Translations under genes and position numbers: made by a program
NCBI RefSeq assembly: GCF_000143145.1
Contig: NC_014313.1
Span: forward strand, 1,798,001 to 1,862,000
DNA length: 64,000 bases
Direction: 5' to 3'
Source: Hyphomicrobium denitrificans ATCC 51888
GTDB taxonomy: Bacteria > Pseudomonadota > Alphaproteobacteria > Rhizobiales > Hyphomicrobiaceae
Notes under the pieces: generated by a model
What the model was told of the DNA's origin: nothing
Databases searched by the model: none
The model's input: only the letters and a program-made list of their open reading frames with translations
Part shown: piece after piece, positions 29,996 to 44,300 of the stretch
Position numbering within the stretch: the stretch's first letter is position 1
Layout: each line of letters starts with the position of its first letter

Positions 29996-30913
29996 TCACG
30001 CCGCGTTGGCGCTGGCATCCGTTCTCGCAGACCTCAAGCCCAACAGGTGGCAGATGGCGTAAACGAGGTCGGCGCGGTTCAATGTGTAGAAGTGGAATTT
30101 CTTGATGCCTTCGTCGACGAGGTCCATCACCTGCTCGGTCGCCGCCGCTGCCGCCACCAGGTGCGTCGTCGCCGGGTCGTCTTCCAGGCCTTCGAAACGG
30201 CGCGCCAGCCATGACGGCACTGTCGCACCGGCGCGCTTCGCAAATCCCGACACCTGCTTGAAATTGTGGATCGGCACGATGCCCGGCGAGATCGGCACCC
30301 AGATTCCGGCGGCACGCGCGCGTTCGAGATAGCGCAGGAAGTGCGCGTTATCGAAACCGAACTGCGTGATGATGCGATCGGCGCCGGCGTCAACCTTGGC
30401 TTTCAGATTTTCGATATCGGCTTCGACCGACGGACTTTCCGGATGCGTCTCCGGATAACCCGCAACCGAAATCTCGAAGTTCGCGATCTTCTTCAGTCCG
30501 GCGACGAGATCGGCGGCATTGGTATATCCGCCCGGATGCGGCTCGTACTTCGTGCCTGCGCCCTGAGCCGGATCGCCGCGCAACGCCACGATATGGCGAA
30601 CGCCCGCGTCCCAGTATGCTCTGGCGACAGCGTCGACCTCTTCCTTCGATGCATCGACGCACGTCAGATGCGCGGCGGGCTTCAGATCGGTTTCACGCAG
30701 AAGACGCGTGACGGTCGCGTGCGTGCGTTCGCGCGTCGAGCCACCTGCTCCATACGTAACGGACACGAACTCGGGGCGCAGCGGCGCAAGACGCGAGATC
30801 GACGACCAAAGCGTCTCCTCCATCTTCTCGGTCTTCGGAGGAAAGAATTCGAAGCTGACGACGATGTCGCCGGAGCCGAGAAGCTTGCTTTTGCGTTCGT
30901 TGCCCTGAGCCAT
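29996..30913 (-). CDS. metF: Methylenetetrahydrofolate reductase
   Basis: MetF reduces methylene-THF to methyl-THF with FAD, supplying the methyl donor for the methionine synthase encoded next. The 305-residue barrel has the early [16 protein letters not shown] (catalytic Glu), [30 protein letters not shown] and [11 protein letters not shown] motifs. The ATG at 30913 overlaps the stop of the regulator gene in TGATG, with GAGGAGG 7 bases upstream, so translation is coupled. A GTG one codon earlier is less well spaced. Confidence 0.96.
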
Positions 30914-31941
30914 CACCGAGCCTCCTCAAGAGTGCCGGTGGCCGCGGCATCTCTGTTCGTATTGCCTTTGAAGTCCCTCGGCCGCTCCGCAAGCCAAAGC
31001 GTAACCGTCAAGATTTTCTCGCTGCCTCCCGGCTTGCGGGTCAGATCACGCACCATGCGCGGAACGAGACCGGCATCCTTCAGCCAGTCGCTGATCTGGT
31101 CGTGCGAAAAGCCAAGACGCTCGTGCGCTTCTTCTGTGCGCAGGAATTCCAATTCGTGCGGCGCGAAATCGACGATCAGCAGCTTGCCACCGGGCGCCAG
31201 AACGCGCGCCGCCTCGCGGATCGCGAGCGATGGATCGGACAAAAAGTGCAGGATCTGATGCATCACGATGGCGTCGGCCTGGCGGTCGGCGATCGACAGC
31301 GCATAAATGTCGCCGTGCCGGACTTGCGCGCGCGTGCAGCCGTCCGTGTTCAGCTTGGCGCGCGCGTACGCCAGCATCGCCTGATTGACGTCGATGCCGA
31401 GCCCACGCTCGAAGCGATCGGAAAATAGTTCAAGCGCGCGGCCGGTGCCCGTTCCGAGATCGAGCAGGAAGCGAAACGGTCCGCTGCCCATCGCTTCGCG
31501 CATCGCGGCTTCGACTTCCCGTTCCGCGACGTGCAGCGTGCGGATGCGGTCCCAATCGGCGGCGTGCTTTTCGAAGAAGGCTTGAGCGGACGCCTCGCGC
31601 TCCCGCTTTAAAGCATCGGCCCGTTCGCGATCGAGGCGAACCGCCGCCTCGGACGGGTCGACGTCGGCCACGAGGCGCAATGCCAAACGGCCACCCGGCT
31701 GGCGGTCCGAGATGTGGAAATAGACCCAGCTGCCCTCGCGGAAGCGTTCGATCAGGCCGGCTTCGAACAGCAGCTTCAGGTGGCGGCTGATGCGCGGCTG
31801 GCTTTGCCCGAGGACCAGGGTCAGATCCTTGACGTTCAGCTCCCCGCCCGCGAGCAGCAGAAGAATGCGCAGGCGCGTCGGCTCGGCCGCTGCTTTCAGC
31901 GCCGTCACGAGATCCGATGTTTTGAGTTCCGCCGTCGACAT
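30913..31941 (-). CDS. ArsR-type regulator fused to SAM methyltransferase domain
   Basis: A 342-residue fusion: a winged-helix ArsR domain (about 1-85, with AAEPTRLRILLLLAGGELNVKDL and QSQPRISRHLKLLFEAGLIERFREGSWVYF) and a class I methyltransferase domain from about 135 (FLLDLGTGTGRALELF as SAM-binding motif I). It heads the metF-metH operon and should sense SAM or SAH to control the methyl cycle, comparable to SahR-type ArsR regulators (inference from context). The start MSTAELKTSD is preferred over an ATG at 31953 because the promoter's -10 lies over the latter; the mRNA would then be nearly leaderless. Confidence 0.9.
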   Translation of the reverse strand: MSTAELKTSDLVTALKAAAEPTRLRILLLLAGGELNVKDLTLVLGQSQPRISRHLKLLFEAGLIERFREGSWVYFHISDRQPGGRLALRLVADVDPSEAAVRLDRERADALKREREASAQAFFEKHAADWDRIRTLHVAEREVEAAMREAMGSGPFRFLLDLGTGTGRALELFSDRFERGLGIDVNQAMLAYARAKLNTDGCTRAQVRHGDIYALSIADRQADAIVMHQILHFLSDPSLAIREAARVLAPGGKLLIVDFAPHELEFLRTEEAHERLGFSHDQISDWLKDAGLVPRMVRDLTRKPGGSEKILTVTLWLAERPRDFKGNTNRDAAATGTLEEAR

Positions 31942-31947
31942 GGCGGG

Positions 31948-31976
31948 AAACATATAAACATATGTTTATGTGTCAA
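31948..31976 (-). promoter_or_regulatory. Promoter with embedded palindromic operator for the methionine operon
   Basis: On the minus strand TTGACA (31976-31971) is followed by 16 bases and TATGTT (31954-31949). The perfect palindrome ATAAACATATGTTTAT (31954-31969) fills the spacer and extends to 22 bp with one mismatched pair. It has the form of an ArsR-family operator, so the first gene of the operon probably represses its own promoter. The expected transcription start falls at about 31942, next to the ATG at 31941. Confidence 0.7.
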
Positions 31977-32011
31977 GCTCTCTTTGGGCCTATCAAAACC
32001 TCGGACAGTCC

Positions 32012-32026
32012 TTAACCACGTTTTAG
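32012..32026 (+). promoter_or_regulatory. CtrA-like site upstream of hypothetical membrane gene
   Basis: TTAA-N7-TTAG, with the favoured TTAACC half, lies 57 bases before the ATG at 32083. It differs from the CtrA consensus by one base. Motif evidence only. Confidence 0.35.
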
Positions 32027-32082
32027 CAAGCGTCCGCATACCGTTCTCCAAGCGCCTGGGCGGCGTGGAAGCGGTGATGTAG

Positions 32083-32718
32083 ATGCAGCAACAATCTCCT
32101 GAGTTCGTGGTGATTTCCGGCGCAATGTACCAGCTGCCGATCACTCTGCGACGCAGCGAGCCCAAGATCGCGAAGCTACCCGGCTTGCTTCTGATGGCAA
32201 CGCTTGCAGCGCTGATCGTCGTCCCGCAAATCGGTCTGGCGGTGTACGCCGTAGCGTCGCCGGAGCTCCGCGCCGTGCTCGTGGCCAATCCGATCGCGGC
32301 CGTCGAGCTTGCGATCGCTCTCGTATTCTGGGCGGCCCTCGTCTGCTGGCCGCTGCGCAACATCGTCATCGCCATGGCGTCCGACCGCATCATCGATATT
32401 CGCAATGGCGACGTCATGGTCGTCGACAGAACGCCGTTCTCGACGCAGGGCTGGCGGATGCCGCTTTCGACCTATGCGGGCGTTTCGGTGAAAATCCGGA
32501 CATCGCTTTCCAGCGTCGTGCGCGACGTCGTTCTGGTCCATCCCGAGGCAAGCCGCAGCGTCACGCTGGCGACGGCGGAACAAGTCGGACAGGGCGAAAT
32601 TCTCGAGCTTTGCCGCATCCTTGGGCTGCCTTTGCTACGACCGGATGCGGTGACGGGGGCGAACGGGCCATCGGGCGGCCACAAATTCGACGCTGATCTT
32701 GCACCGGCCGGAGCGTAA
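32083..32718 (+). CDS. Hypothetical membrane protein with C-terminal cytosolic domain
   Basis: A 211-residue protein with two membrane helices at about 33-55 (LPGLLLMATLAALIVVPQIG) and 70-92 (AAVELAIALVFWAALVCWPL). A soluble part of about 110 residues follows, with strand-like segments such as DRIIDIRNGDVMVVDRTPF and VSVKIRTSLSSVVRDVVLVH. This layout resembles small PH-like membrane proteins, where the soluble part would be a beta-rich sandwich, but no family motif is secure. It is divergent from the methionine-operon regulator and has a CtrA-like site in its promoter region. Confidence 0.7.
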   Translation: MQQQSPEFVVISGAMYQLPITLRRSEPKIAKLPGLLLMATLAALIVVPQIGLAVYAVASPELRAVLVANPIAAVELAIALVFWAALVCWPLRNIVIAMASDRIIDIRNGDVMVVDRTPFSTQGWRMPLSTYAGVSVKIRTSLSSVVRDVVLVHPEASRSVTLATAEQVGQGEILELCRILGLPLLRPDAVTGANGPSGGHKFDADLAPAGA

Positions 32719-32842
32719 TCGGGCATCGTTTTGACGAGATTGTTGCTTCTCTACCGCGGTAGGTCTGGTTTGTGCGAGCAGACAGATGGCGGCACATCCC
32801 TTTCGGGCTGACTTGAGAAGAGAGAACTGGTAAGGGGCGACT

Positions 32843-33445
32843 ATGCGAGGGTTAGACACGCAGATGACAATTTGGACGCGGACGCGCTCCGCCTGCTGGC
32901 TAATTGCCATAATGGTCTGCGTCGCGGCGCTGACGACAACGAATGCACGCGCGGAATCGCCCGCAGCCTATATGCAGGGCGTTCAAAACGAACTGCTGGC
33001 CGCGCAACGCACCGGCGGTGTCGTCGCCTTCAGCGACGTTCTGCGCAAGCACATGGACGTCCCCAACATCGGTTTGACGGCGCTTGGACCGCATGCGCGC
33101 ACGCTGCCGAAGGCCGAGCGTCCGAGCTATTACAACGGCATGATCAACTTCATCGCCAAATACGCGGCGAAAACGGCTCCGGAATATCCGGTGGCGAGCG
33201 CTGTCGTCGTCGGCCAGGGTCCTGGCGATGCTGGCGGCACGAATGTCGACGCGCGCATCACACTGCGTTCCGGTGCGACGTACGACATCCGCTGGCTCGT
33301 GATGAAGTCGGGCTCCGGGTACAAGGTGCGCGACGCGCAGGTCGTCGGCTTCTGGATGACGTCGTTCCTCGACGATCTTTTCCAGAACTACATCACCGAG
33401 AACGGCAATAATCCCCGCGCGCTGGTGCTGGCTCTCAGCCGCTGA
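32843..33445 (+). CDS. MlaC/Ttg2D-type periplasmic lipid-transfer protein
   Basis: A 200-residue precursor with an N-terminal hydrophobic signal (ACWLIAIMVCVAALTTTNARA) and the Tol_Tol_Ttg2 (MlaC) domain. It shows FSDVLRKHMDVPNIGLTALGPHARTL, YYNGMINFIAKYA, DARITLRSGATYDIRWLVMKSGSGYKVRDAQVVGFWMTSFLDDLFQNYI. MlaC proteins carry phospholipids between outer and inner membranes and normally work with MlaFEDB; those genes are not in this window, so it may serve another Mce-type system. A strong terminator follows, so it ends its transcript. Two possible starts (MRGL and MTIW) differ by 7 residues. Confidence 0.87.
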   Translation: MRGLDTQMTIWTRTRSACWLIAIMVCVAALTTTNARAESPAAYMQGVQNELLAAQRTGGVVAFSDVLRKHMDVPNIGLTALGPHARTLPKAERPSYYNGMINFIAKYAAKTAPEYPVASAVVVGQGPGDAGGTNVDARITLRSGATYDIRWLVMKSGSGYKVRDAQVVGFWMTSFLDDLFQNYITENGNNPRALVLALSR

Positions 33446-33466
33446 GCGCGATGAAATCACAGAATC

Positions 33467-33508
33467 GCACAACCGGCGGGCAGACGATTCCCGCCGGTTG
33501 TGCTTTTT
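33467..33508 (+). terminator. Rho-independent terminator after the MlaC-like gene
   Basis: GCACAACCGGCGGG and CCCGCCGGTTGTGC form a perfect 14-bp stem around a 9-base loop and are followed by five T. Confidence 0.9.
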
Positions 33509-33781
33509 GTGCACGCATCGAGGATATTTTTCACCGTGCCCGATGTGCCTCTTAATCTCGCTCGCATTGGCTCTTATGTGGATCGGATGCGCGCAGCGTG
33601 TCGATGGCGGCACGCATGTCCGCGCCTACGTTCCCATTCGCGGTAATCTCATTGACACCGCTGTTCGCCTGCGGGCGCTAGCGATGCTATCGACGTGTGA
33701 TGCCCGGCACGTGGGATGCCGGTCAGGTTGAAGCTGGCTTGCAACATGAAGCAAGGCCGCGAAGCAGGTAAGGAGGCCGTC
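33509..33781. other. Leader region of the PRC-barrel gene
   Basis: These 273 bases lie between the terminator and the TTG start of the PRC-barrel gene. An in-frame extension and a 77-codon frame cross it, but neither has a suitable ribosome site. The only strong signal is AAGGAGG at its end. Confidence 0.4.
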
Positions 33782-34432
33782 TTGTTCTCGGCGAAAACGT
33801 ATTCTCTGGCGAGCGCTTCATTTGCTGCCGCCATGCTGGTGCTCGGAACTTCTCCAGGATATTCCGCGACGAACGACAGGATCGTTCTCGCGCAGCAGGC
33901 CGAGCCGGCTGACGCTGCACAGGCGGAACAGACCCTCTCCGCAAACGAGGAAACCGCGCAGGCCCCTGAGGCCGACGCGCCTGCGGACGGCCAGAGCGCG
34001 CCGGCACCGGAAGGCGGCGATACCGCAGCTCCAGCGCCGGAGCCCGAGGCTCCCGCTGCTCCCGCCGACGCCACCGAGGCCCCTGCTCCCGAAGGCGCTG
34101 CTCAGGAACCGGCCCCGGAAGCTCCGGCAGCCGAAGCCGCTCCGGACGCCGCGGGTGCTGCGAGTTCGACCATCGAAGCCAGCCAGCTCAAAATCGGCCA
34201 GGCCGTTCTCGGCTCGGACGGCGCGAAGATCGGCGAGATCAACGGCGTGAAGTCGGATACCTCCGGCAAGGTGCAGGAGATCCTGGTCACGGCCGGAACG
34301 CCCGCCGGCATGAACGCGCAGGTCTATGCCATTGGCGGCGACAAGATCACCGAGGTTTCCGACGGCGTGAAGCTGTCGATCAGTTCGGAGGAAGCCAAGC
34401 AGTTGCCGATCGTCGACAAAAGCAACGGCTAA
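33782..34432 (+). CDS. Exported PRC-barrel domain protein with Ala/Pro/Glu-rich linker
   Basis: A 216-residue precursor starting at TTG, preceded by AAGGAGG at 5 bases; the start gives a proper signal peptide (FSAKTYSLASASFAAAMLVLGTSPGYSA). Residues 45-125 are a low-complexity linker of Ala, Pro, Glu and Asp. The last 80 residues form a PRC-barrel (SQLKIGQAVLGSDGAKIGEINGV ... VQEILVTAG). PRC-barrels occur in the photosynthetic reaction centre H subunit and RimM, and as stand-alone periplasmic proteins in this order, where their role is unknown. A strong terminator follows. Confidence 0.85.
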   Translation: MFSAKTYSLASASFAAAMLVLGTSPGYSATNDRIVLAQQAEPADAAQAEQTLSANEETAQAPEADAPADGQSAPAPEGGDTAAPAPEPEAPAAPADATEAPAPEGAAQEPAPEAPAAEAAPDAAGAASSTIEASQLKIGQAVLGSDGAKIGEINGVKSDTSGKVQEILVTAGTPAGMNAQVYAIGGDKITEVSDGVKLSISSEEAKQLPIVDKSNG

Positions 34433-34455
34433 GCTCCCTACACTGCCTGTTTTTT

Positions 34456-34487
34456 AAGCCGCGCTTTCTCGAAAGCGCGGCTTTTTT
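34456..34487 (+). terminator. Rho-independent terminator after the PRC-barrel gene
   Basis: AAGCCGCGCTTT and AAAGCGCGGCTT pair as a 12-bp stem around CTCG, followed by a run of six T. Confidence 0.92.
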
Positions 34488-34594
34488 CATGGCGGTTTAT
34501 CCAAACTGCCGATCCCCACTTGGCTAATGCCGGTTGAGTCCATTACCCAAGTTCCCGCACGCGATGAAACTCCGCGCAGCCGGGAGAGAAATTC

Positions 34595-36463
34595 ATGACG
34601 CCGAGAATGAGCCGCTATGCGGCCGCAGTATTCGCAATTGTCGGAATGGCGATGCTTTTACCGGCTCCGTCCGGATGGGCGGACGAGGCGCTCGACACCA
34701 GCAAGCTGCCGCGCATATCCGGCGGCAAGGAAATCTACGCCAGTCCGCTGTCGACGATTTTCACCGCGCCGTCGTCCGTCGCCGATACGGCCGCCGAGAC
34801 GCTCAAGGTCTTGAGCGCCGATGGCTGGCAACAATACGGCCGCGTCTCTGCGAGCGAACAGGCAAATCCCGACATGGTGCTCGCGTCTCTCAAGAAAGGC
34901 GCGCAGGGGCTTTCGGTTTTCATCAATGCGGCGCCCGCGCAGAATAATGCGACCAGCGTCACGTATTCCGGCGTGCCCCTGGAGCACGACCTGCCGTTCC
35001 CGAAAAACGCGACCGAAATCAAATTCGATGCCGATCGTCCGCATCTCAAATGCACGACGCCTGACACCGTCGAAGCCACGTCCGATTTTTTCAGAACGGA
35101 GTTGATCGCGCGCGGCTGGTCACCGTGGTCGAAGGAGGACTCGGCCAAAGCCGCGTATGCCGACAAGAAAACGGAGAAAGGTCTTTTCTCCTACTACGTT
35201 CAAGACAATCAAAAGCCGCTCATCCTGACGCTGCAAAAGAGCGACGACGGCAAGACGGCCGTCAACCTCGAGAGCATTCCGCCACAAATTCTTTTCGCGG
35301 CCAAAGAAGCGCCCGAAGACAAGCCGGAGCCGACTCCGCAGCCGTCCGCGCCGACGGCGCATGACAAGCTCGGCGACGCCATGGATGCGCTGGCGCTCGA
35401 CATTATGGAGCAAGCGAAGAAGGCGACGAAAGACGCTCTTGCAGGCGTCACCGCACCTCAGCCGCCAGCCGATGCACGCGCCGCTCAGGCATCGCAACCG
35501 CAGTCGAAGCTCACGGCCCTTGCGGGCAACTCAGCACCGATCCCCGTACCATCGACGGCTGACGGTCTCGATTTCGACGGAAGCGCCGGACGTCTCGATT
35601 ACAACAGTTCATCCAGCGTTGCCGAGGTCGTCGCATTCTATCGCGCCGAGATGCCGGCGCTCGGCTGGAGCGAGCGCAAGACCGTCATCAATCAGCCGAA
35701 CATGGTCGCGCTCGAATTCCACAAAGGCGAGCAGGAGGTTTCACTCACCATCATGAAGATGGGAACGTCGGTCAATGTGACCGGCGCGGGCTCGGCTTTG
35801 CAGAAAGAGGAAGCGGTTGCGCCAGACGCCTCTGCTTCCGAGACTTCATCCGGCAATGACACGACGCAGGCGCTGGAAGCCGACGAAGCGGGCGGACTGC
35901 CTGTGCCGAAGCCGCACTCGCTGAGCGGGAGTGAAAAGTCGCTGTTCCGATATAGCGCCAATGCCAGCGTGCCAGCGAAGCTCGCGTCCGTTCTCGAATT
36001 CTATCGCGCCGAACTTGGCAAGCGAGGCTGGACCGAGGATACCTCCAAAGCAGTCATCAAGCCCGACGAGGTCGTGCTTTATTATACGATGCCCGAAGGT
36101 CCGGCCGTCCTGAGGCTCGGCCGTGCCAGCGGCGAGACGACGGCTCAACTGTCGATCCGGCAGACGGAGGCCGCGAAGAAATCCGGACTGATGCCGAAGC
36201 CAGGCCAGACGAAAATTCTATTCGGCAACATTCTCGAAACGCCCGCGACGCTTGTGATCGCCGGAAAGACGATCAAGATTCCGGGTGGCGCGGGGAGCAA
36301 AGCTCCTGACGGCCCGACGCTCGAACTCGCTCCGGGCAAGCACGCCTACAGCTTGAAGGGGTCGAAAGCTCCGATGGCCAACGATACCGTCGAGGTCGCA
36401 GCTGACGAAATCTGGGGCCTGATGGTCGGGCCGGGCGGCGTGCTGCCGGTGCAGATGTACTGA
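34595..36463 (+). CDS. Large exported protein with four repeats of an FYRxEL-GW unit
   Basis: A 622-residue precursor with a signal peptide (to about SGWADEA). Four units of roughly 85-100 residues share a pattern: a leader LPxP/IPVP, a segment ending in an aromatic-rich helix such as FYRAELGKRGW, then a strand pair. The helix motifs are ETLKVLSADGW, FFRTELIARGW, FYRAEMPALGW and FYRAELGKRGW. Residues 235-330 form a charged, Gln/Pro-rich linker between units two and three. The C-terminal 90 residues (PATLVIAGKTIKIPGG) look like a PEGA-type beta domain. I do not recognise the family. It may be an envelope scaffold, but this is only inference from export and repeats. Confidence 0.8.
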   Translation: MTPRMSRYAAAVFAIVGMAMLLPAPSGWADEALDTSKLPRISGGKEIYASPLSTIFTAPSSVADTAAETLKVLSADGWQQYGRVSASEQANPDMVLASLKKGAQGLSVFINAAPAQNNATSVTYSGVPLEHDLPFPKNATEIKFDADRPHLKCTTPDTVEATSDFFRTELIARGWSPWSKEDSAKAAYADKKTEKGLFSYYVQDNQKPLILTLQKSDDGKTAVNLESIPPQILFAAKEAPEDKPEPTPQPSAPTAHDKLGDAMDALALDIMEQAKKATKDALAGVTAPQPPADARAAQASQPQSKLTALAGNSAPIPVPSTADGLDFDGSAGRLDYNSSSSVAEVVAFYRAEMPALGWSERKTVINQPNMVALEFHKGEQEVSLTIMKMGTSVNVTGAGSALQKEEAVAPDASASETSSGNDTTQALEADEAGGLPVPKPHSLSGSEKSLFRYSANASVPAKLASVLEFYRAELGKRGWTEDTSKAVIKPDEVVLYYTMPEGPAVLRLGRASGETTAQLSIRQTEAAKKSGLMPKPGQTKILFGNILETPATLVIAGKTIKIPGGAGSKAPDGPTLELAPGKHAYSLKGSKAPMANDTVEVAADEIWGLMVGPGGVLPVQMY

Positions 36464-36486
36464 CCGGCAGACAGTTCGCATTTGAA

Positions 36487-36670
36487 CTAGCGTTCGAAGC
36501 GCTTGAACTTGATGCGATGAGGCACTCTTCTCTTGGCGCCGGCGACTCCGCTACGCGGAGCCGGCGGCCTGCGCGCAATTACCGCTCAAAGCGCTTGAAC
36601 TTGATACGATGCGGCACTCTTCCCTTTGCGCCGGCGACTCCGCTGTGCGGAGCCGGCCGCCGGCGCGCAG
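36487..36670. repeat. Two 92-bp tandem units, each copying the 3' end of ettA plus a hairpin
   Basis: Starting at 36487 and 36579, two units each contain 37 bases matching the last 37 bases of ettA (36671-36707, a third copy with the same 92-base spacing) and 55 bases with a hairpin (CTCCGC, 3-base loop, GCGGAG, flanked by CCGGC/GCCGG). Read on the minus strand, every copy encodes [11 protein letters not shown] followed by a stop. Differences among the copies fall only at third codon positions, including the stop (TAA or TAG). The spacer halves are about 85 percent alike, with the loop bases varying and the stems kept. Confidence 0.85.
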
Positions 36671-38329
36671 TTACCGCTCGAAGCGCTTGAACTTGATGCG
36701 ATGCGGCTCGACGGCCTCGTCGCCCAGGCGGCGCTTCTTGTCTTCCTCGTAATCGGCGAAGTTGCCTTCGAACCATTCGACGTGGCTGTCGCCTTCGAAG
36801 GCCAGAATGTGCGTCGCGAGGCGATCGAGGAAGAAGCGATCGTGCGAGATGACGACGGCGCAGCCGGGGAAATCTTCGAGCGCCGCTTCAAGCGCGCCGA
36901 GCGTTTCGGTGTCGAGGTCGTTGGTCGGCTCGTCGAGGAGCAGCAGGTTGCCGCCCTCTTTCAGGAGCTTCGCAAGATGCACGCGGTTGCGTTCGCCGCC
37001 CGATAGCAATCCGACCTTCTTCTGCTGGTCGGCGCCCTTGAAGTTGAACCAGCCGCAATAGGCGCGCGACGGCACTTCCTTCTTGCCGCCGAGCAGCATC
37101 TGATCGAGGCCGCCGGAGATTTCCTCCCAGACGGTTTTCTTGTCATCGAGGTGCGCGCGCGACTGGTCGACGTAAGCGATCTTCACGGTATCGCCGAGAC
37201 GGATCGATCCGGCGTCAGGTTCTTCCTGGCCGGTGAGCATCTTGAACAGCGTCGTCTTGCCGGCACCGTTCGGACCGATGACGCCGACGATGCCGCCGGG
37301 CGGCAGCTTGAACGAGAGATTGTCGATCAGCAGACGGTCGCCGAAACCTTTGCTCAGTCCGTCGGCCTCGATCACGACGCCGCCGAGGCGCGGGCCGGTC
37401 GCGATCTGGATGCTGGCGCGGCCGTTCTCTTCGCGTCCGGCTTCGTCGGCGAGTTTTTCATACGCGGTGATACGCGCCTTCGACTTGGCCTGACGGGCCT
37501 TCGGCGAGGAGCGGATCCATTCGAGTTCGCGCGAAAGAGCCTTTTGCTTGCCCTCTTCCTGCGCCTTCTCGGCGGCTTCGCGCTTCGCGCGTTGTTCGAG
37601 CCAGCCGGAGTAATTGCCCTTCCACGGTACGCCCTGGCCGCGATCGAGTTCGAGGGTCCATTCGGTGATGTTGTCGAGGAAGTAGCGATCGTGGGTCACG
37701 AGAATGACACAACCCGTATATTCGCGGAGATATCGTTCGAGCCACGCGACGCTTTCGGCGTCGAGATGGTTGGTTGGTTCGTCGAGCAGGAGAATGTCGG
37801 GCTTCGACAACAGCAGCCTAGTCAGTGCGACGCGGCGCTTTTCGCCGCCCGACAGTTTCGTCACGTCGGAATCGCCCGGCGGAGACCGAAGCGCATCGAG
37901 CGCCTGCTCGACCTGGGCGTCGAGGTCCCAAAGGTTCTGCGCGTCGATCTGGTCCTGCAGCGCCGTCATTTCGTCCGCCGTCTCTTCGGTATAGTTGGCG
38001 GCGATTTCGTTGTAACGATCGAGGATCGCTTTCTTCTCGGCGACGCCTTCCATCGCATTGCCGAGCACGTCCTTCGTCTCGTCGAGTTCGGGTTCCTGCG
38101 GGAGATAGCCGACCTTGATTCCATCGGCCGGGCGCGCCTCGCCGATAAAGTCGTCAACGACGCCCGCCATGATTTTCAGAAGCGTCGATTTACCCGCGCC
38201 GTTCAAACCGACGACGCCGATCTTCGCACCCGGCAGGAACGACAGCGAAATGTCCTTCAGCACCTGCTTTCCGCCCGGATAGGCCTTGGAGAGCTTGTGC
38301 ATATGGTAGACGTACTGGTGTGCGGCCAT
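36671..38329 (-). CDS. ettA: Energy-dependent translational throttle protein EttA (ABC-F)
   Basis: EttA is a ribosome-binding ABC-F ATPase that gates the first elongation steps according to the ATP/ADP ratio. The 552-residue protein has two nucleotide-binding domains: Walker [10 protein letters not shown] and GPNGAGKTT, signatures LSGGEKRR and LSGGERNR, Walker [12 protein letters not shown] and [11 protein letters not shown]. The linker (P-site tRNA interaction motif) is at about residues 245-320 and the short EttA arm at about 90-140. The C-terminus is [16 protein letters not shown], typical of the family. Downstream, two extra copies of the final 37 bases follow in tandem, each in a different frame. 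Confidence 0.96.
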
Positions 38330-38453
38330 CGGGGGCGCCTCTGCGTAAGACGTTTAAGGGGTTAGGCGCGCGTTCTAGCCGATCGCTGCGCATTGCTCAA
38401 ATATATCATTGGGCTCGCGTTTCAACCCGCTCAGACCGCCGCATGCCGCGGGT

Positions 38454-39485
38454 TCAGCGCGGCGGCGCCGAAACGAGGCCGGGGAGCATTTTCGCGCGTT
38501 TCGTCCAACGGCGCACAATCTCGGATGCGATCACGTCAGCGGAGTGAAGCGGCCTGTAGCTCCAGGTTTCGATTTCACTTCCGGGGGCTGGCGGCGGCCG
38601 CGTGACGCCGTGTTCGGCGAGCGCTTTATGGAAGCGATCGAACTTCGCGCCACCGCCGGAGGGCGAAAAAATATAAATCGGTCGCCCGGTCGCGGCAGCC
38701 TCGCACGTCATGCTGACGCTGTCGGCGGTAATGAGAAACATGTCGGCGTGGGCGAGAAAATCCGGATAGGGATTGTTTTCGCCGCCATCCCAGAACAGCG
38801 CATTCGTATCGCGCACGGCGTCCTTGATACCGGCCGCGAGCTTCTCCGGTGTTCGCCGCGATGTCGTGATCATCAGACCGAAGCCGCGGTGCGCGAAATC
38901 CTTGAGACATGCGACAAGCCGGGATTGGTCGTCGTCACTGTAGGTGTAATCGCCGTTCGGTCCGCCGATCAGGCAGGCGACGCGCGGCTGCGGCAGCGCG
39001 GCGATTGCCGCCGGCATGTGCGCGCGCAGAGCTTCGAGCCGTTGCGGCGAATAGCGATGCGGGGCGGTGAGCGTCGTGATGACATTCAATCCGCGCAAAC
39101 GGTCATGCTCTGGAACCCAGATCAGGTCGGCGGTGCCCGGTCCCGTTCGCGGGTCCATGAGAATGACCGTGTACGTCTTAAAGCCTGCCAGCCGGCGAAG
39201 CGCGCGGAGATAGGGGATCGTCGTGCGGCCCGTCGCAAACGCGATGACCGGCCACGGGGGAGCAAACTGCGCGCCCGGCTGTCCGAAGCGTTCACGGGGC
39301 GCGACAGGACCCCAGGGCGCCATCCACTTGAAGACGCCGCTCGGCGCGACGCGCTTCACCTCGGCCTTCTGACCCAGCGCCTCGACGACGCCAAAGCACT
39401 GAGCCTCGTGCCCGGCCTTGCCGTCGGAGATGATCCAGGCCGTCTGGCCTGCGAGGGGGTGATCGTCGAGTGGAGAAGCGGTCAT
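38454..39485 (-). CDS. ELM1-like (DUF1022) protein
   Basis: A 343-residue soluble protein of the family named after plant mitochondrial fission factor ELM1. Landmarks are WIISDGKAGHEAQCFGVVEALG, RTTIPYLRALRRLAGFKTYTVILMDPRTGP, ACLIGGPNGDYTY, MITTSRRTPEKLAAGI, and the C-terminal block ITADSVSMTCEAAATGRPIYIF, which resembles the nucleotide-sugar-binding part of GT-B glycosyltransferases. Bacterial members may act in lipopolysaccharide or glycolipid synthesis; this is inference from the fold. It lies upstream of ettA on the same strand, about 125 bases away. Confidence 0.86.
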   Translation of the reverse strand: MTASPLDDHPLAGQTAWIISDGKAGHEAQCFGVVEALGQKAEVKRVAPSGVFKWMAPWGPVAPRERFGQPGAQFAPPWPVIAFATGRTTIPYLRALRRLAGFKTYTVILMDPRTGPGTADLIWVPEHDRLRGLNVITTLTAPHRYSPQRLEALRAHMPAAIAALPQPRVACLIGGPNGDYTYSDDDQSRLVACLKDFAHRGFGLMITTSRRTPEKLAAGIKDAVRDTNALFWDGGENNPYPDFLAHADMFLITADSVSMTCEAAATGRPIYIFSPSGGGAKFDRFHKALAEHGVTRPPPAPGSEIETWSYRPLHSADVIASEIVRRWTKRAKMLPGLVSAPPR

Positions 39486-39616
39486 GCGGCGATGTTTTCA
39501 TCTCTTCGGCGTCGGGTGTCGAGCCCCGAAGCAGCCGCACTAACGAAACAAACGAAACGTGGTGCGATGGAGCAGCGTTCCTGATATTACACTCGCGCCT
39601 CCTGGAACGAATGTTA

Positions 39617-40105
39617 ATGGCAATAGAACTCGACGCGACCGACTGGCGAATCCTCAAAGAGCTGCAGGCCGACGGCCGGATGACGAACATCGCGCTCGCC
39701 AACCGGATCGGGCTTTCCGCGCCGCCGTGCCTGCGCCGGGTTCGCGCGCTCGAGGAAGCCGGGCTGATTTCGGGATACACGGCGCTGATCGATGAGGTCG
39801 CGCTCGGATATGCTCTGACCGCGTTCGCCATGGTCCGCCTGCACAATCAGGCCGAGTCCGATCTCCGCGCTTTCGAAAATCGCGTTCTCGGCTGGCCCCT
39901 CGTCCGGGAGGCCTACATGCTTTCCGGCGAAAGCGATTTTATGCTGAAATGCATCGCGCGCGATCTGCCCGAGTTCCAAAGCTTCGTGCTCGATGCGCTG
40001 ACGTCGGCGCCGAACGTCGCGAGCGTCAAGACGTTCCTGACCATTCGAAGAACCAAGCGCGAGCCTGGCGTTCCGATTGCTGTGACTGGACCGGAAGAGA
40101 CCTGA
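39617..40105 (+). CDS. Lrp/AsnC family transcriptional regulator
   Basis: A 162-residue regulator with an N-terminal helix-turn-helix (LDATDWRILKELQADGRMTNIALANRIGLSAPPCLRRVRALEEAGLI) and a C-terminal RAM/effector domain (YALTAFAMVRL ... GESDFMLKCIARDLPEFQSFVLDAL). Lrp-type proteins form octamers and respond to amino acids. The target is not evident: it is divergent from the ELM1-like gene and upstream of a small secreted protein. Start choice lies between ATG at 39617 and the ATG two codons earlier at 39611; both fit. Confidence 0.92.
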   Translation: MAIELDATDWRILKELQADGRMTNIALANRIGLSAPPCLRRVRALEEAGLISGYTALIDEVALGYALTAFAMVRLHNQAESDLRAFENRVLGWPLVREAYMLSGESDFMLKCIARDLPEFQSFVLDALTSAPNVASVKTFLTIRRTKREPGVPIAVTGPEET

Positions 40106-40128
40106 CACACGAACGAAGTCGAGGACGC

Positions 40129-40698
40129 ATGCAGGGCCTTATGAGCAATCCGACACTCATGCGCTTCATGCTTCTCGCCGGTTCGCTGTCACTCGGTGTG
40201 GCGAGCAACGCGTCGGCGACGTCGAGCGATCTCTACGATCGTTATTTCTCGAACGTGCTCGCCGGGCGGCCGTGTTTCGCGGCAACCTACAACGAAGCGC
40301 ATCTCAAAACGCACCCGGCGCAACGCGTGCGCAGCATCGAGGTCGACTTGGCCAAAACGAACTCGGATGGCTCGCCGAATTCCGCCGATCGTTTCCAGCT
40401 CGGCTTCGCGCTAATGCTTTCAGTCAAAGACGAGTGGTACGGACAGGCTGCAAGCTGCAAGGCGAGCGATCAGGGTTTCGACTGCTTTCTCGAGGCAGAC
40501 GGCGGCATCTTCCGCTTGAGCCCGATCGGCGCCGGCGGTCTGAGACTGAAGACGGGCGAAACCGGGCTAGCGCTCGAAGGCACGGCGGATACGGTCGAAC
40601 TCAGCGGCACCGAAGGCGACGACAGAGTGTTCGATCTCCTGCCTTCACAGCGCGAATGCGACGCGGCGCGCGCCTACTTCGACGGCGATAGCGATTAA
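40129..40698 (+). CDS. Secreted hypothetical protein with conserved cysteines
   Basis: A 189-residue precursor starting MQGLMSNPTLMRFMLL with a signal peptide ending near SNASA. The mature part has Cys in RPCFAATYNEAHL, ASCKASDQGFDCFLEADGG and SQRECDAARAYF, likely forming two periplasmic disulfides, and a beta-rich middle with FQLGFALMLSVKDEWYG. I do not recognise the family. It follows the AsnC-type regulator by 24 bases and may be co-transcribed. A GAGGA site lies close before the chosen ATG; the ATG at 40141 is an alternative. Confidence 0.72.
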   Translation: MQGLMSNPTLMRFMLLAGSLSLGVASNASATSSDLYDRYFSNVLAGRPCFAATYNEAHLKTHPAQRVRSIEVDLAKTNSDGSPNSADRFQLGFALMLSVKDEWYGQAASCKASDQGFDCFLEADGGIFRLSPIGAGGLRLKTGETGLALEGTADTVELSGTEGDDRVFDLLPSQRECDAARAYFDGDSD

Positions 40699-40729
40699 TT
40701 CCAACGCAGACGAGAGCGCTGCGGCGGCG

Positions 40730-41203
40730 TTACTTCCAGGAGACTTTCAGAACTTCGAGGGTCCGCGTGCCCTTCGGCGTCGTGACGTCGACGCTCTCGC
40801 CATTCGTCTTGCCGATCAACGCGCGCGCGATGGGCGACGAGATCGAGATCTTGCCGTTCTTCAGGTCGGCTTCGGTGTCGCCGACGATGGTGTACGTCAC
40901 CTTGTCTTCGGAATCTTCGTCCTGAAGCGTGACCGTCGCGCCGAACTTGACCGTGTCGCCAGAGAGCTTCGACGTATCGATGACCTCGGCGCGATTGATC
41001 TTGTCCTCAAGCTCAGCAACGCGGGCTTCGTTCAGCCCCTGCTGTTCCTTGGCGGCATGATATTCCGCGTTTTCCGAAAGGTCGCCGTGGGCGCGCGCTT
41101 CCGAGATCGCAGCGATGATGCGCGGACGCTCGACAGCTTTCAGCCGCTGCAGCTCCGTTTCGAGGTTCTTGTATCCCTCGATGGTCATCGGCACCCGTTC
41201 CAT
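40730..41203 (-). CDS. greA: Transcription elongation factor GreA
   Basis: GreA enters the RNA polymerase secondary channel and triggers cleavage of backtracked RNA. From the ATG at 41203 the protein has 157 residues, and the acidic coiled-coil tip [21 protein letters not shown] puts Asp41 and Glu44 at the canonical numbers, which supports this start over the in-frame codon at 41302. The C-terminal FKBP-like domain has [33 protein letters not shown] lies 6 bases before this ATG. It is downstream of carB on the same strand, an order frequent in the class. Confidence 0.95.
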
Positions 41204-41344
41204 CATCTTCTCCACGTCTCGAACGGTCTCTACTCGCGGAGCGCCGGCTCCGACCCAGTTAAACTCGCGCTTTAATGAATAGAAAAGTGGCTGTGCTGGC
41301 ACGCGCTATTCAAAAGCGTTCAGATCACCTGTATTGCGAACGGC

Positions 41345-44300
41345 TCAATGATGCGCAAAAGCCTGCAGCGGCGCCACTTGAAGCGTATCGGAATTCAACG
41401 CCCTGATGGCTCGTGTGACAGCCACTGCCCCTGACAATGTTGTATAATAGGGGATGTGGTGAAGCAAGGCCGTGCGCCGGATGTCCTTGCTGTCGCTCAG
41501 CGCCTTGGAACCTTCGGTTGTATTAAAAACAAGGTGGATATCGCCGTTTTTGATCGCGTCGACGATATGCGGGCGGCCTTCCAGAACCTTGTTGATGCTT
41601 TCGCACTGAATTCCGTTCGCTTCCAGGAACCGCTTCGTGCCGCGGGTGGCGACGACCTTGAAGCCCATCGCTTCGAGTTCCTTCACCGGGCCGACGATCC
41701 GCGCCTTGTCGCTTTCCTTGACCGACACGAACACCGTGCCGCCCGAGGGCAGCGTCTGTCCGGCGCCGAGCTGGCTCTTGCCGAAGGCCATTGCGAAATC
41801 GTGGTCGATGCCCATGACCTCGCCGGTCGAACGCATTTCCGGTCCGAGGATCGGATCAACGCCGAGGAAGCGCGCGAACGGGAATACGGCTTCTTTGACG
41901 GCGATGTGTTTGTAGACCGGCTTCTTCAGCTCGAAGCTCGCGAGGGGCTTGCCCGCCATGATCCGCGACGCGATCGAGGCGATCGGCAGCCCGATGACCT
42001 TGGCAACGAACGGCACCGTTCGCGAGGCGCGCGGATTGACTTCAAGAATGAAGACCTCGCCGTCCTTGATCGCGAACTGAATGTTCATCAGGCCGACCAC
42101 ACGCAGCGCCAGAGCAAGCTCACGCGCCTGCCGTTCGAGTTCGGTGATGATGTCAGCCGAGAGCGAGTGCGGCGGCAGTGAGCAGGCGCTGTCGCCCGAG
42201 TGGATGCCGGCTTCCTCGATGTGCTCCATGATGCCGGCGACGAACGTATCCTTGCCGTCAGAAAGGCAATCGACGTCGACTTCGACCGCGTCGGTCAGAT
42301 AGCTGTCGATCAGAAGCGGGCGCCTCTCGGAGACGACGAGTTCGGACGGACGGTCGAGCGTCGCGGAAAGACGCGTGACGTAGCGATCGACCTCGCTGCC
42401 GTCGTGGACGATTTCCATCGCGCGGCCGCCGAGCACATACGACGGACGAATGACGACCGGATAGCCGATCGTTTCGGCAACGGCGCGCGCCTCGCCCGGC
42501 GTTTTGGCGATGCCGCTTTTCGGCTGCTTGAGATTGAGCTTTTCGATGAGCGCCTTGAAGCGATCGCGGTCTTCGGCAAGGTCGATCGCATCGGGCGATG
42601 TGCCGAGGATCGGAACGCCGGCTTCTTCCAGCGCGCTCGCGAGCTTCAGCGGGGTCTGGCCGCCGAACTGAACGATGACGCCCTTGAGCTTGCCCTTGCT
42701 GCTTTCGACGCGGATGATTTCGAGCACGTCTTCGGCAGTCAGCGGCTCGAAGAACAGGCGGTCCGAGGTGTCGTAGTCGGTCGAGACGGTTTCCGGGTTG
42801 CAGTTGACCATGATCGTCTCAAAGCCCGCCGCGGTCAGCGCAAAGCAGGCGTGGCAGCAGCAGTAATCGAACTCGATGCCCTGGCCGATTCGGTTCGGGC
42901 CGCCGCCGAGAATGACGATCTTTTCTTTGTCAGAAGGATCGGCTTCGCAGACGGGATCGCCGCTGAGGCCGGTTTCGTAGGTCGAATACATGTAGGCGGT
43001 GGGCGACGCGAATTCCGCCGCGCACGTGTCGATGCGCTTGAAGACCGGCGTCACGCCCAGGTCGTGGCGCGCGCGGCGAACGTCGGCTTCGCTCACCTTT
43101 GCGAGGTGCGCCAGACGCGCGTCCGAGAAGCCCTGCGCCTTGAGCGCGCGAAGCTGCGTCTCCGTCTTCGGCAGGCCGTGCGCGATGACGCGCGCTTCCG
43201 TATCGACGACGCCTTTGATCTCGGCGAGGAACCAAGGATCGATCTTGCTGTACTGGTGGACCTCTTCCTGCGAGAAGCCGAGGCGGAACGCCTGCGCGAC
43301 TTTCAGGATGCGGTCGAAGGTCGGTCGCGAGACGGCGGCGCGCACGACGTTCTTGTCGTCGCCCTGCCCGATGCCGTCGAGATGGATATCGTCGAAGCCG
43401 GTCAGGCCCGTTTCCATCGATCGCAATGCTTTCTGCATGCTTTCGCGGAACGTGCGTCCGATGGCCATCGCTTCGCCGACCGACTTCATCGACGTCGTCA
43501 GCGACGTGTCGGAGCCGGGGAATTTCTCGAACGCGAAGCGCGGAATCTTGGTCACGACGTAGTCGATCGTCGGCTCGAAAGATGCCGGCGTCGCGCCGCC
43601 TGTGATGTCGTTCTGGATTTCGTCGAGCGTGTAGCCGACGGCGAGCTTGGCCGCGACCTTGGCGATCGGGAAGCCGGTGGCCTTCGAGGCGAGCGCGGAC
43701 GAGCGCGAGACGCGCGGGTTCATCTCGATGACGACGAGGCGGCCGTCGGCGGGATTGACTGCGAACTGGACGTTCGAGCCGCCGGTTTCGACGCCAATCT
43801 CGCGCAGCACTGCGATCGAGGCATCGCGCATGATCTGGTATTCTTTGTCGGTCAGCGTCAGCGCCGGTGCGACCGTGATCGAGTCGCCGGTGTGCACGCC
43901 CATCGGATCGACGTTCTCGATCGAGCAGATGATGATGCAGTTGTCCGCCTTGTCGCGGACGACCTCCATCTCGAATTCCTTCCAGCCGAGGACGCTTTCC
44001 TCGACCAGGATCTGCGTCGTCGGCGAGGCGTCGAGCCCGCGCTCGGCGATCTCGAAGAATTCCTCGCGGTTGTAGGCGATGCCGCCGCCGGTTCCGCCGA
44101 GCGTGAACGACGGCCGGATGATCGCGGGCAGGCCGACATGCTCAAGGGCATCGGCCGCTTCTTCACGCGTGTGGGCGAGCTTGGAGCGCGGCGTCTCGAG
44201 CCCGATCGTCTTCATCGCCTCACGGAAGAGCTGGCGGTCTTCGGCCTTGTCGATCGCAGCCGCGTTGGCGCCGATCAGTTCGACGCCGTGGCGCTGCAGA

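Follow-up and report, generated by a model that had tools for sequence, protein, structure and literature searches.

The window analysed here, a stretch of 64,000 nucleotides from Hyphomicrobium denitrificans ATCC 51888, carries on its reverse strand an open reading frame of 552 residues (36671..38329) that encodes the energy-dependent translational throttle protein EttA, matching the NCBIfam models TIGR03719 (929 bits) and NF008775 (925 bits), both over cut-off. The named relatives of this EttA also gave the genus, Hyphomicrobium, within which the comparisons below were made. Converging on ettA from the forward strand is an open reading frame of 622 residues (34595..36463), for which an NCBIfam search returned no match. 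In the short interval between the two genes lies a tandem array built from the end of ettA itself. Read in the direction of the gene, the order is the body of ettA, core A (36671..36707, the last 37 nt and true coding 3' end of the gene), hairpin 1 (36616..36670, 55 nt), core B (36579..36615, a silent copy of the gene end), hairpin 2 (36524..36578, 55 nt) and core C (36487..36523, a further silent copy, with no hairpin behind it). All three cores lie on the reverse strand, at spacings of exactly 92 and 92 bases, and 23 nt separate core C from the stop of the convergent gene. The array has a TRF score of 352, the five remaining rows in the window scoring 62 or less. A preliminary description of this DNA had reported three 37-base ettA ends at a 92-base period, which these coordinates confirm, and a 55-base hairpin after each of them, which they do not, since three cores are accompanied by only two hairpins and it is the distal core that goes without.

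The two hairpins are in different states of repair. Hairpin 1 has an intact outer stem (R1 match 36610-36674 on the plus strand, 58.8 bits; folding energy -32.7 kcal/mol, z -3.08), and hairpin 2 shows partial decay of its outer stem (R1 match 36518-36582, plus strand, 51.2 bits; -26.8 kcal/mol, z -1.70). They differ at 7 of 55 positions; two of these lie in the loop and two disrupt outer-stem pairing in hairpin 2, so that the earlier statement that stems are kept is only partly true. Unconstrained decay is therefore visible in hairpin 2, directly beside cores that have remained synonymous.

Translation confirmed that all three cores read the same peptide. Core A differs from core B at CGC/CGT and TTC/TTT, with CGT and TTT private to B, and from core C at CCG/CCT, GAG/GAA, CGG/CGC and TAA/TAG, C having the second form of each; all six variable columns are thus third positions, as had been claimed. 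Six columns drawn at random from the 36 would fall exclusively on third positions with a probability of 0.00047, although this nominal P of 0.0005 is weakened by the fact that the array was chosen for its synonymous pattern. By eye, against the sequences of relatives, three of the six changes could be assigned to the silent copies (CGT and TTT in B, CCT in C), and the probability of three out of three falling at third positions is 0.031. The other three pairs, GAG/GAA, CGG/CGC and TAA/TAG, may have changed in the working ettA, because relatives use all of these forms. The synonymous differences therefore exceed what plain neutral decay would lead one to expect (P 0.0005 to 0.03), and the synonymy itself stands, but the contention that non-coding debris would not show it was too strong, given that no more than half of the changes are assignable to silent copies.

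The spacer between the cores proved to belong to a family of GC-rich palindromes dispersed over many loci unrelated to ettA. With the array as query, our search of the 3.64-Mb chromosome on which it lies, in which 40 of 71 candidates were scored, gave at least 57 matches at E up to 10. Among 60 genomes searched, this one included, 40 had a match at E <= 0.001, and every one of the 21 further genomes of the genus was among them. The query for this search also contains the ettA end; for the hairpin part itself, matches were present in at least 17 of the 21. An alignment of 33 copies has a common core, GACTC-NNN-loop-NNN-GAGCCGGCC, with a variable outer stem around it. Pairing is kept in 97% of its 495 cells, with 111 two-sided changes, and the covariation score is 0.634, compared with 0.147 for shuffled controls and no more than 0.168 for slid ones. 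A covariance model gave at least 82 hits in the chromosome's own genome (150 of 4376 candidates scored), and 112, 71 and 56 hits in the relatives G018, G003 and G017 respectively; within the window it gave two, both at the ettA array. Copies of the palindrome were seen downstream of genes at ettA, at sucA and at an HPr-like gene. The spacer is thus a dispersed repeat and does not belong to ettA alone. A known RNA family was also considered and rejected, Rfam giving over positions 30000-42000, at E up to 1, two weak matches and none at the array, and we found no description of this palindrome family in Hyphomicrobium in the literature searched.

The family is strand-polarised. Over whole chromosomes, the pattern GACTCN{8,11}GAGCCGGCC occurs in forward and reverse orientation 40 and 17 times in G000, 38 and 2 in G003, 48 and 12 in G007, 30 and 7 in G017, and 6 and 62 in G018. 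A replication-oriented repeat would be expected to flip between replichores, which the bias in G000 does not: it shows no switch along the chromosome, the successive quarters having plus and minus counts of 7/2, 8/2, 22/11 and 11/1 (a cluster at 1150-1168 kb excluded). In 20 evenly spaced 10-kb pieces per genome, GC skew is mostly of one sign along the chromosome and agrees with the orientation of the palindrome, being positive in 18 of 20 pieces in G000 and negative in 14 of 20 in G018 (overall -0.0235). At five loci (L004, L017, L022, L023 and L233), inspection by eye places the hairpin directly 3' of the T tract of an apparent intrinsic terminator. A second palindrome family may coexist with this one, as ccgtcatcccggcgaaggccgggatcca-like sequences near hairpins (at L231 and at loci of other relatives) resemble, by eye, CGTC-tagged REPs as the excerpts available to us describe them.

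The palindrome family, which is widespread in the genus, also enters reading frames. Hairpin-containing open reading frames match terminase, portal protein, MazG, class I tRNA synthetase and UvrB. A Pfam scan took ten of the hairpin-bearing frames listed and returned no match for four of them; across L218, L204, L213 and L212 it placed class I tRNA synthetase (ileS-like), MazG and UvrB above the cut-off and a HAD hydrolase below it. The excluded cluster (L188, G000:C1:1150000-1168000) has twelve model hits within 10 kb (1153336-1163158), amid terminase and portal genes and with hairpins inside the open reading frames of both; from its appearance, it may be a gene transfer agent cluster.

Relatives allow the ettA locus to be viewed without the array. 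An ettA match was present in 20 of the 21 other genomes of the genus, and none of these 20 had a second core (query 164-200) at E <= 0.001, a threshold that strongly diverged copies would escape; secondary matches in five genomes span query 99-172 only. Three of the 20 (G007, G011 and G017) have a single hairpin of the family directly behind the ettA stop, with a different outer stem, GGCTTCC/GGAAGCC. This arrangement is the single-unit state from which tandem duplication would start. Measured by the refuting conditions that the preliminary description had set, its view of the copies has a mixed outcome: relatives lack the units and the spacer is dispersed, both of which tell against it, and the copies stay synonymous, which tells for it.

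Other hairpins were examined for copied flanking DNA in two ways. The flanking-duplication test used 76 of the 82 genome hits (short matches were dropped) and 228 controls, whose largest score was 54. Only two arrays exceeded all controls in direct duplication of their flanks: that at ettA (64 and 62) and another, at 3300.8 kb, with a score of 81. With 47 and 49, the array at 2253 kb stayed below the largest control. The linker test covered 32 neighbouring same-strand hairpin pairs at 23 loci in this genome and four relatives, its input being 62 of 80 matches, three genome-model hits and the two window hits, with partial, weak, isolated and opposite-strand matches left out. Arrays L191, L205, L207, L210, L238, L240, L243 and L246 stood outside the scripted test, and L228 was excluded because its hairpins are more than 120 nt apart. 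In 9 of the 32 pairs, distributed over six arrays, the linker repeats the right flank, which at the present locus is ettA's side; the copied flank is absent in the other 23. The ettA array is the only tested one whose outer left flank also bears a copy, namely core C. One array, L247 (G009:C1:225000-226300), has five tandem palindromes in units of about 69 bp, each a hairpin plus a linker of 26-28 nt that repeats the right flank.

In two arrays the copied flank holds a coding gene end: that of ettA and, as a second clear case, that of a gene at 3711 kb in G018 whose predicted product is HPr-like. Native and copied versions of the HPr-like end (EECVGDA and stop) differ by one synonymous change, GCT/GCC, and by one change behind the stop. 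An array with 95-96-bp units lies in this genome between two genes that we take to be sucA and sucB. In G017 a single hairpin stands behind sucA; when the linker was aligned with the end of sucA in that relative and the bases after it, none of 2000 dinucleotide shuffles did as well. Against the array's own sucA end 37 of 2000 shuffles did so, and 59 of 2000 when G009 was used; for the second linker against G017 the figure was 58 of 2000. On these alignments the sucA linker is probably a copied gene end, and the copy is frame-broken. Thus gene-end capture recurs, the HPr-like end having also been copied, and synonymy is not a rule, since the sucA copy has lost its frame. A further 'gene end' flagged by script at L244 falls between the second and third hairpins of that locus and was set aside as a chance open reading frame.

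We consider it likely that a REP-like palindrome was amplified in tandem together with its flanking DNA and carried the 3' end of ettA along. This agrees with one suggestion of the preliminary description, in which the hairpin unit takes the end of the gene with it, as the unit indeed consists of a dispersed palindrome and the adjacent end of the gene. Several observations count against it. Plain duplication of a core with its hairpin gives equal numbers of the two, whereas the array has three of the former and two of the latter; it alone among the tested arrays has the copy in its outer left flank as well; the ettA hairpins of relatives have another outer stem; most of the tested pairs lack a copied flank; the synonymous differences exceed plain neutral decay; and the sucA linker resembles the sucA end of its own genome only weakly. 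The unequal numbers would follow directly if a hairpin had instead inserted into the C-terminal part of ettA and duplicated about 37 bp of its target, thereby restoring the gene end, and one unequal crossing-over had followed, which yields three cores, two hairpins and a core C at the outer edge without a hairpin. We regard this as unlikely, in that among the 76 full-length hairpins no duplication exceeded the largest of the 228 controls outside ettA and 3300.8 kb, and by eye no residues are repeated on either side of the hairpin in the ileS-like frame. Long target duplication as a general feature of hairpin insertion was rejected on the same count of two arrays among 76 hairpins. Gene ends with their hairpins could also have come in from ettA genes of other strains, entering through recombination at one border and an illegitimate join at the opposite border, such that every core was once a working one; the cores do differ much as other Hyphomicrobium ettA ends do, mostly at third positions. 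Such a history requires two illegitimate events at one boundary, however, and A and B share a stop codon and a hairpin, B and C share a junction, and no relative's ettA end that we compared (by eye) bears a hairpin with the outer stem of the array, all of which makes it distinctly improbable.

The preliminary description had offered as one explanation repeated integration of an element that uses and restores the ettA 3' end as its attachment site, and integration is indeed known to leave repeated gene ends with their coding sense kept. We give this next to no chance: the 55 bp between cores are the largest thing there, leave no room for an integrase and recur at dozens of other places, and a search at E <= 0.001 found no second core in any of the 20 relatives with an ettA match, so that the proposed attachment-site scars find no support. 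Slightly less improbable, though we would still give it very little chance, is that the units arose by pasting in copies of a transcript's 3' end, the family spreading by reverse transcription primed at T tracts. On the sense strand the order at ettA is gene end, stop, hairpin and an A-rich stretch (GGGAAGAGT and GAGAAGAGT), and the HPr-like array in G018 is also A-rich. If this were true, the arrays would be serial snapshots of a working gene end and hence synonymous, and the one-sided chromosomal orientation of the family and its place behind T tracts would share its mechanism.

Under tandem amplification with the flank, the array would have begun with a REP-like palindrome directly behind the ettA stop, between ettA and the convergent gene. 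Palindrome and ettA-side flank would then have been duplicated in tandem, probably via replication slippage or template switching at the hairpin, perhaps with later unequal crossing-over between units. Because the copied flank begins inside the gene, every unit takes with it the final 37 bases of ettA; the core next to the gene body codes, and the others are silent. The synonymy may be partly chance, the changes being few, and crossing-over or deletion among near-identical units may at times swap another core into the coding position and remove broken cores. Loss of a distal third hairpin behind core C would account for three cores and two hairpins, although when that hairpin was sought by alignment with G014, 370 of 2000 shuffles did as well, which is not significant. 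The significance of a hairpin right behind a stop codon is that its tandem amplification multiplies the 3' end of the gene, a concrete way in which palindromes could copy pieces of coding sequence. A strange array of synonymous gene ends would thereby be explained without a new mobile element, and it serves as a warning that repeated gene ends are not to be read as attachment-site scars.

Attachment sites at gene 3' ends are nevertheless a natural comparison, as there too a repeated gene end keeps its coding sense; the ettA array shares this with them, but with no element, integrase or such site found in the relatives searched. Rickettsia palindromic elements are palindromes within the reading frames of functional genes. 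The Hyphomicrobium hairpins likewise lie inside frames that stay open, a likeness drawn by description only, and here most attention went to the copies behind genes. These Rickettsia elements are named in the excerpts of PMC3733652, which describe REP palindromes as short, present in many copies and found both between and inside genes, repair genes among them. REPs are there said to lie predominantly downstream of coding regions, with many intragenic ones in replication and repair genes, and those with a CGTC tag to be mainly alphaproteobacterial and without a dedicated transposase (PMC3733652). To the extent of that account, the Hyphomicrobium palindrome is likewise short, many-copy, and both intergenic and intragenic. 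It differs from tagged REPs in having a variable outer stem around the conserved GACTC...GAGCCGGCC core, and neither a GTAG nor a CGTC tag was found in the consensus of the 33 copies. Neither Hyphomicrobium nor the copying of gene ends comes up in the passages on REPs in those excerpts.

REPINs, as the portions of PMC3116915 available to us present them, are inverted pairs of REPs linked to RAYT transposases, and in Pseudomonas fluorescens SBW25 their ordered clusters are tandem, near-identical units that include flanking sequence. The Hyphomicrobium arrays resemble these in having tandem units with flank; unlike them, their palindromes are single and no Y1 transposase was found. The search for the Y1 (RAYT-type) family PF01797, the only transposase family searched, was negative in the one genome tested, its control being positive in 5 of 14 known genomes, and a RAYT-driven REP was rejected accordingly. 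In a broad sense the family is REP-type, being a dispersed palindrome with conserved pairing that forms tandem clusters with flanking DNA (9 of 32 pairs), and both REP and REPIN clusters, in the parts of these two sources at hand, repeat in tandem with flanking DNA (PMC3733652, PMC3116915). Thus, we conclude that the kind of repeat cluster is already known, and that it is the coding flank and the synonymous copies that make the ettA array notable.
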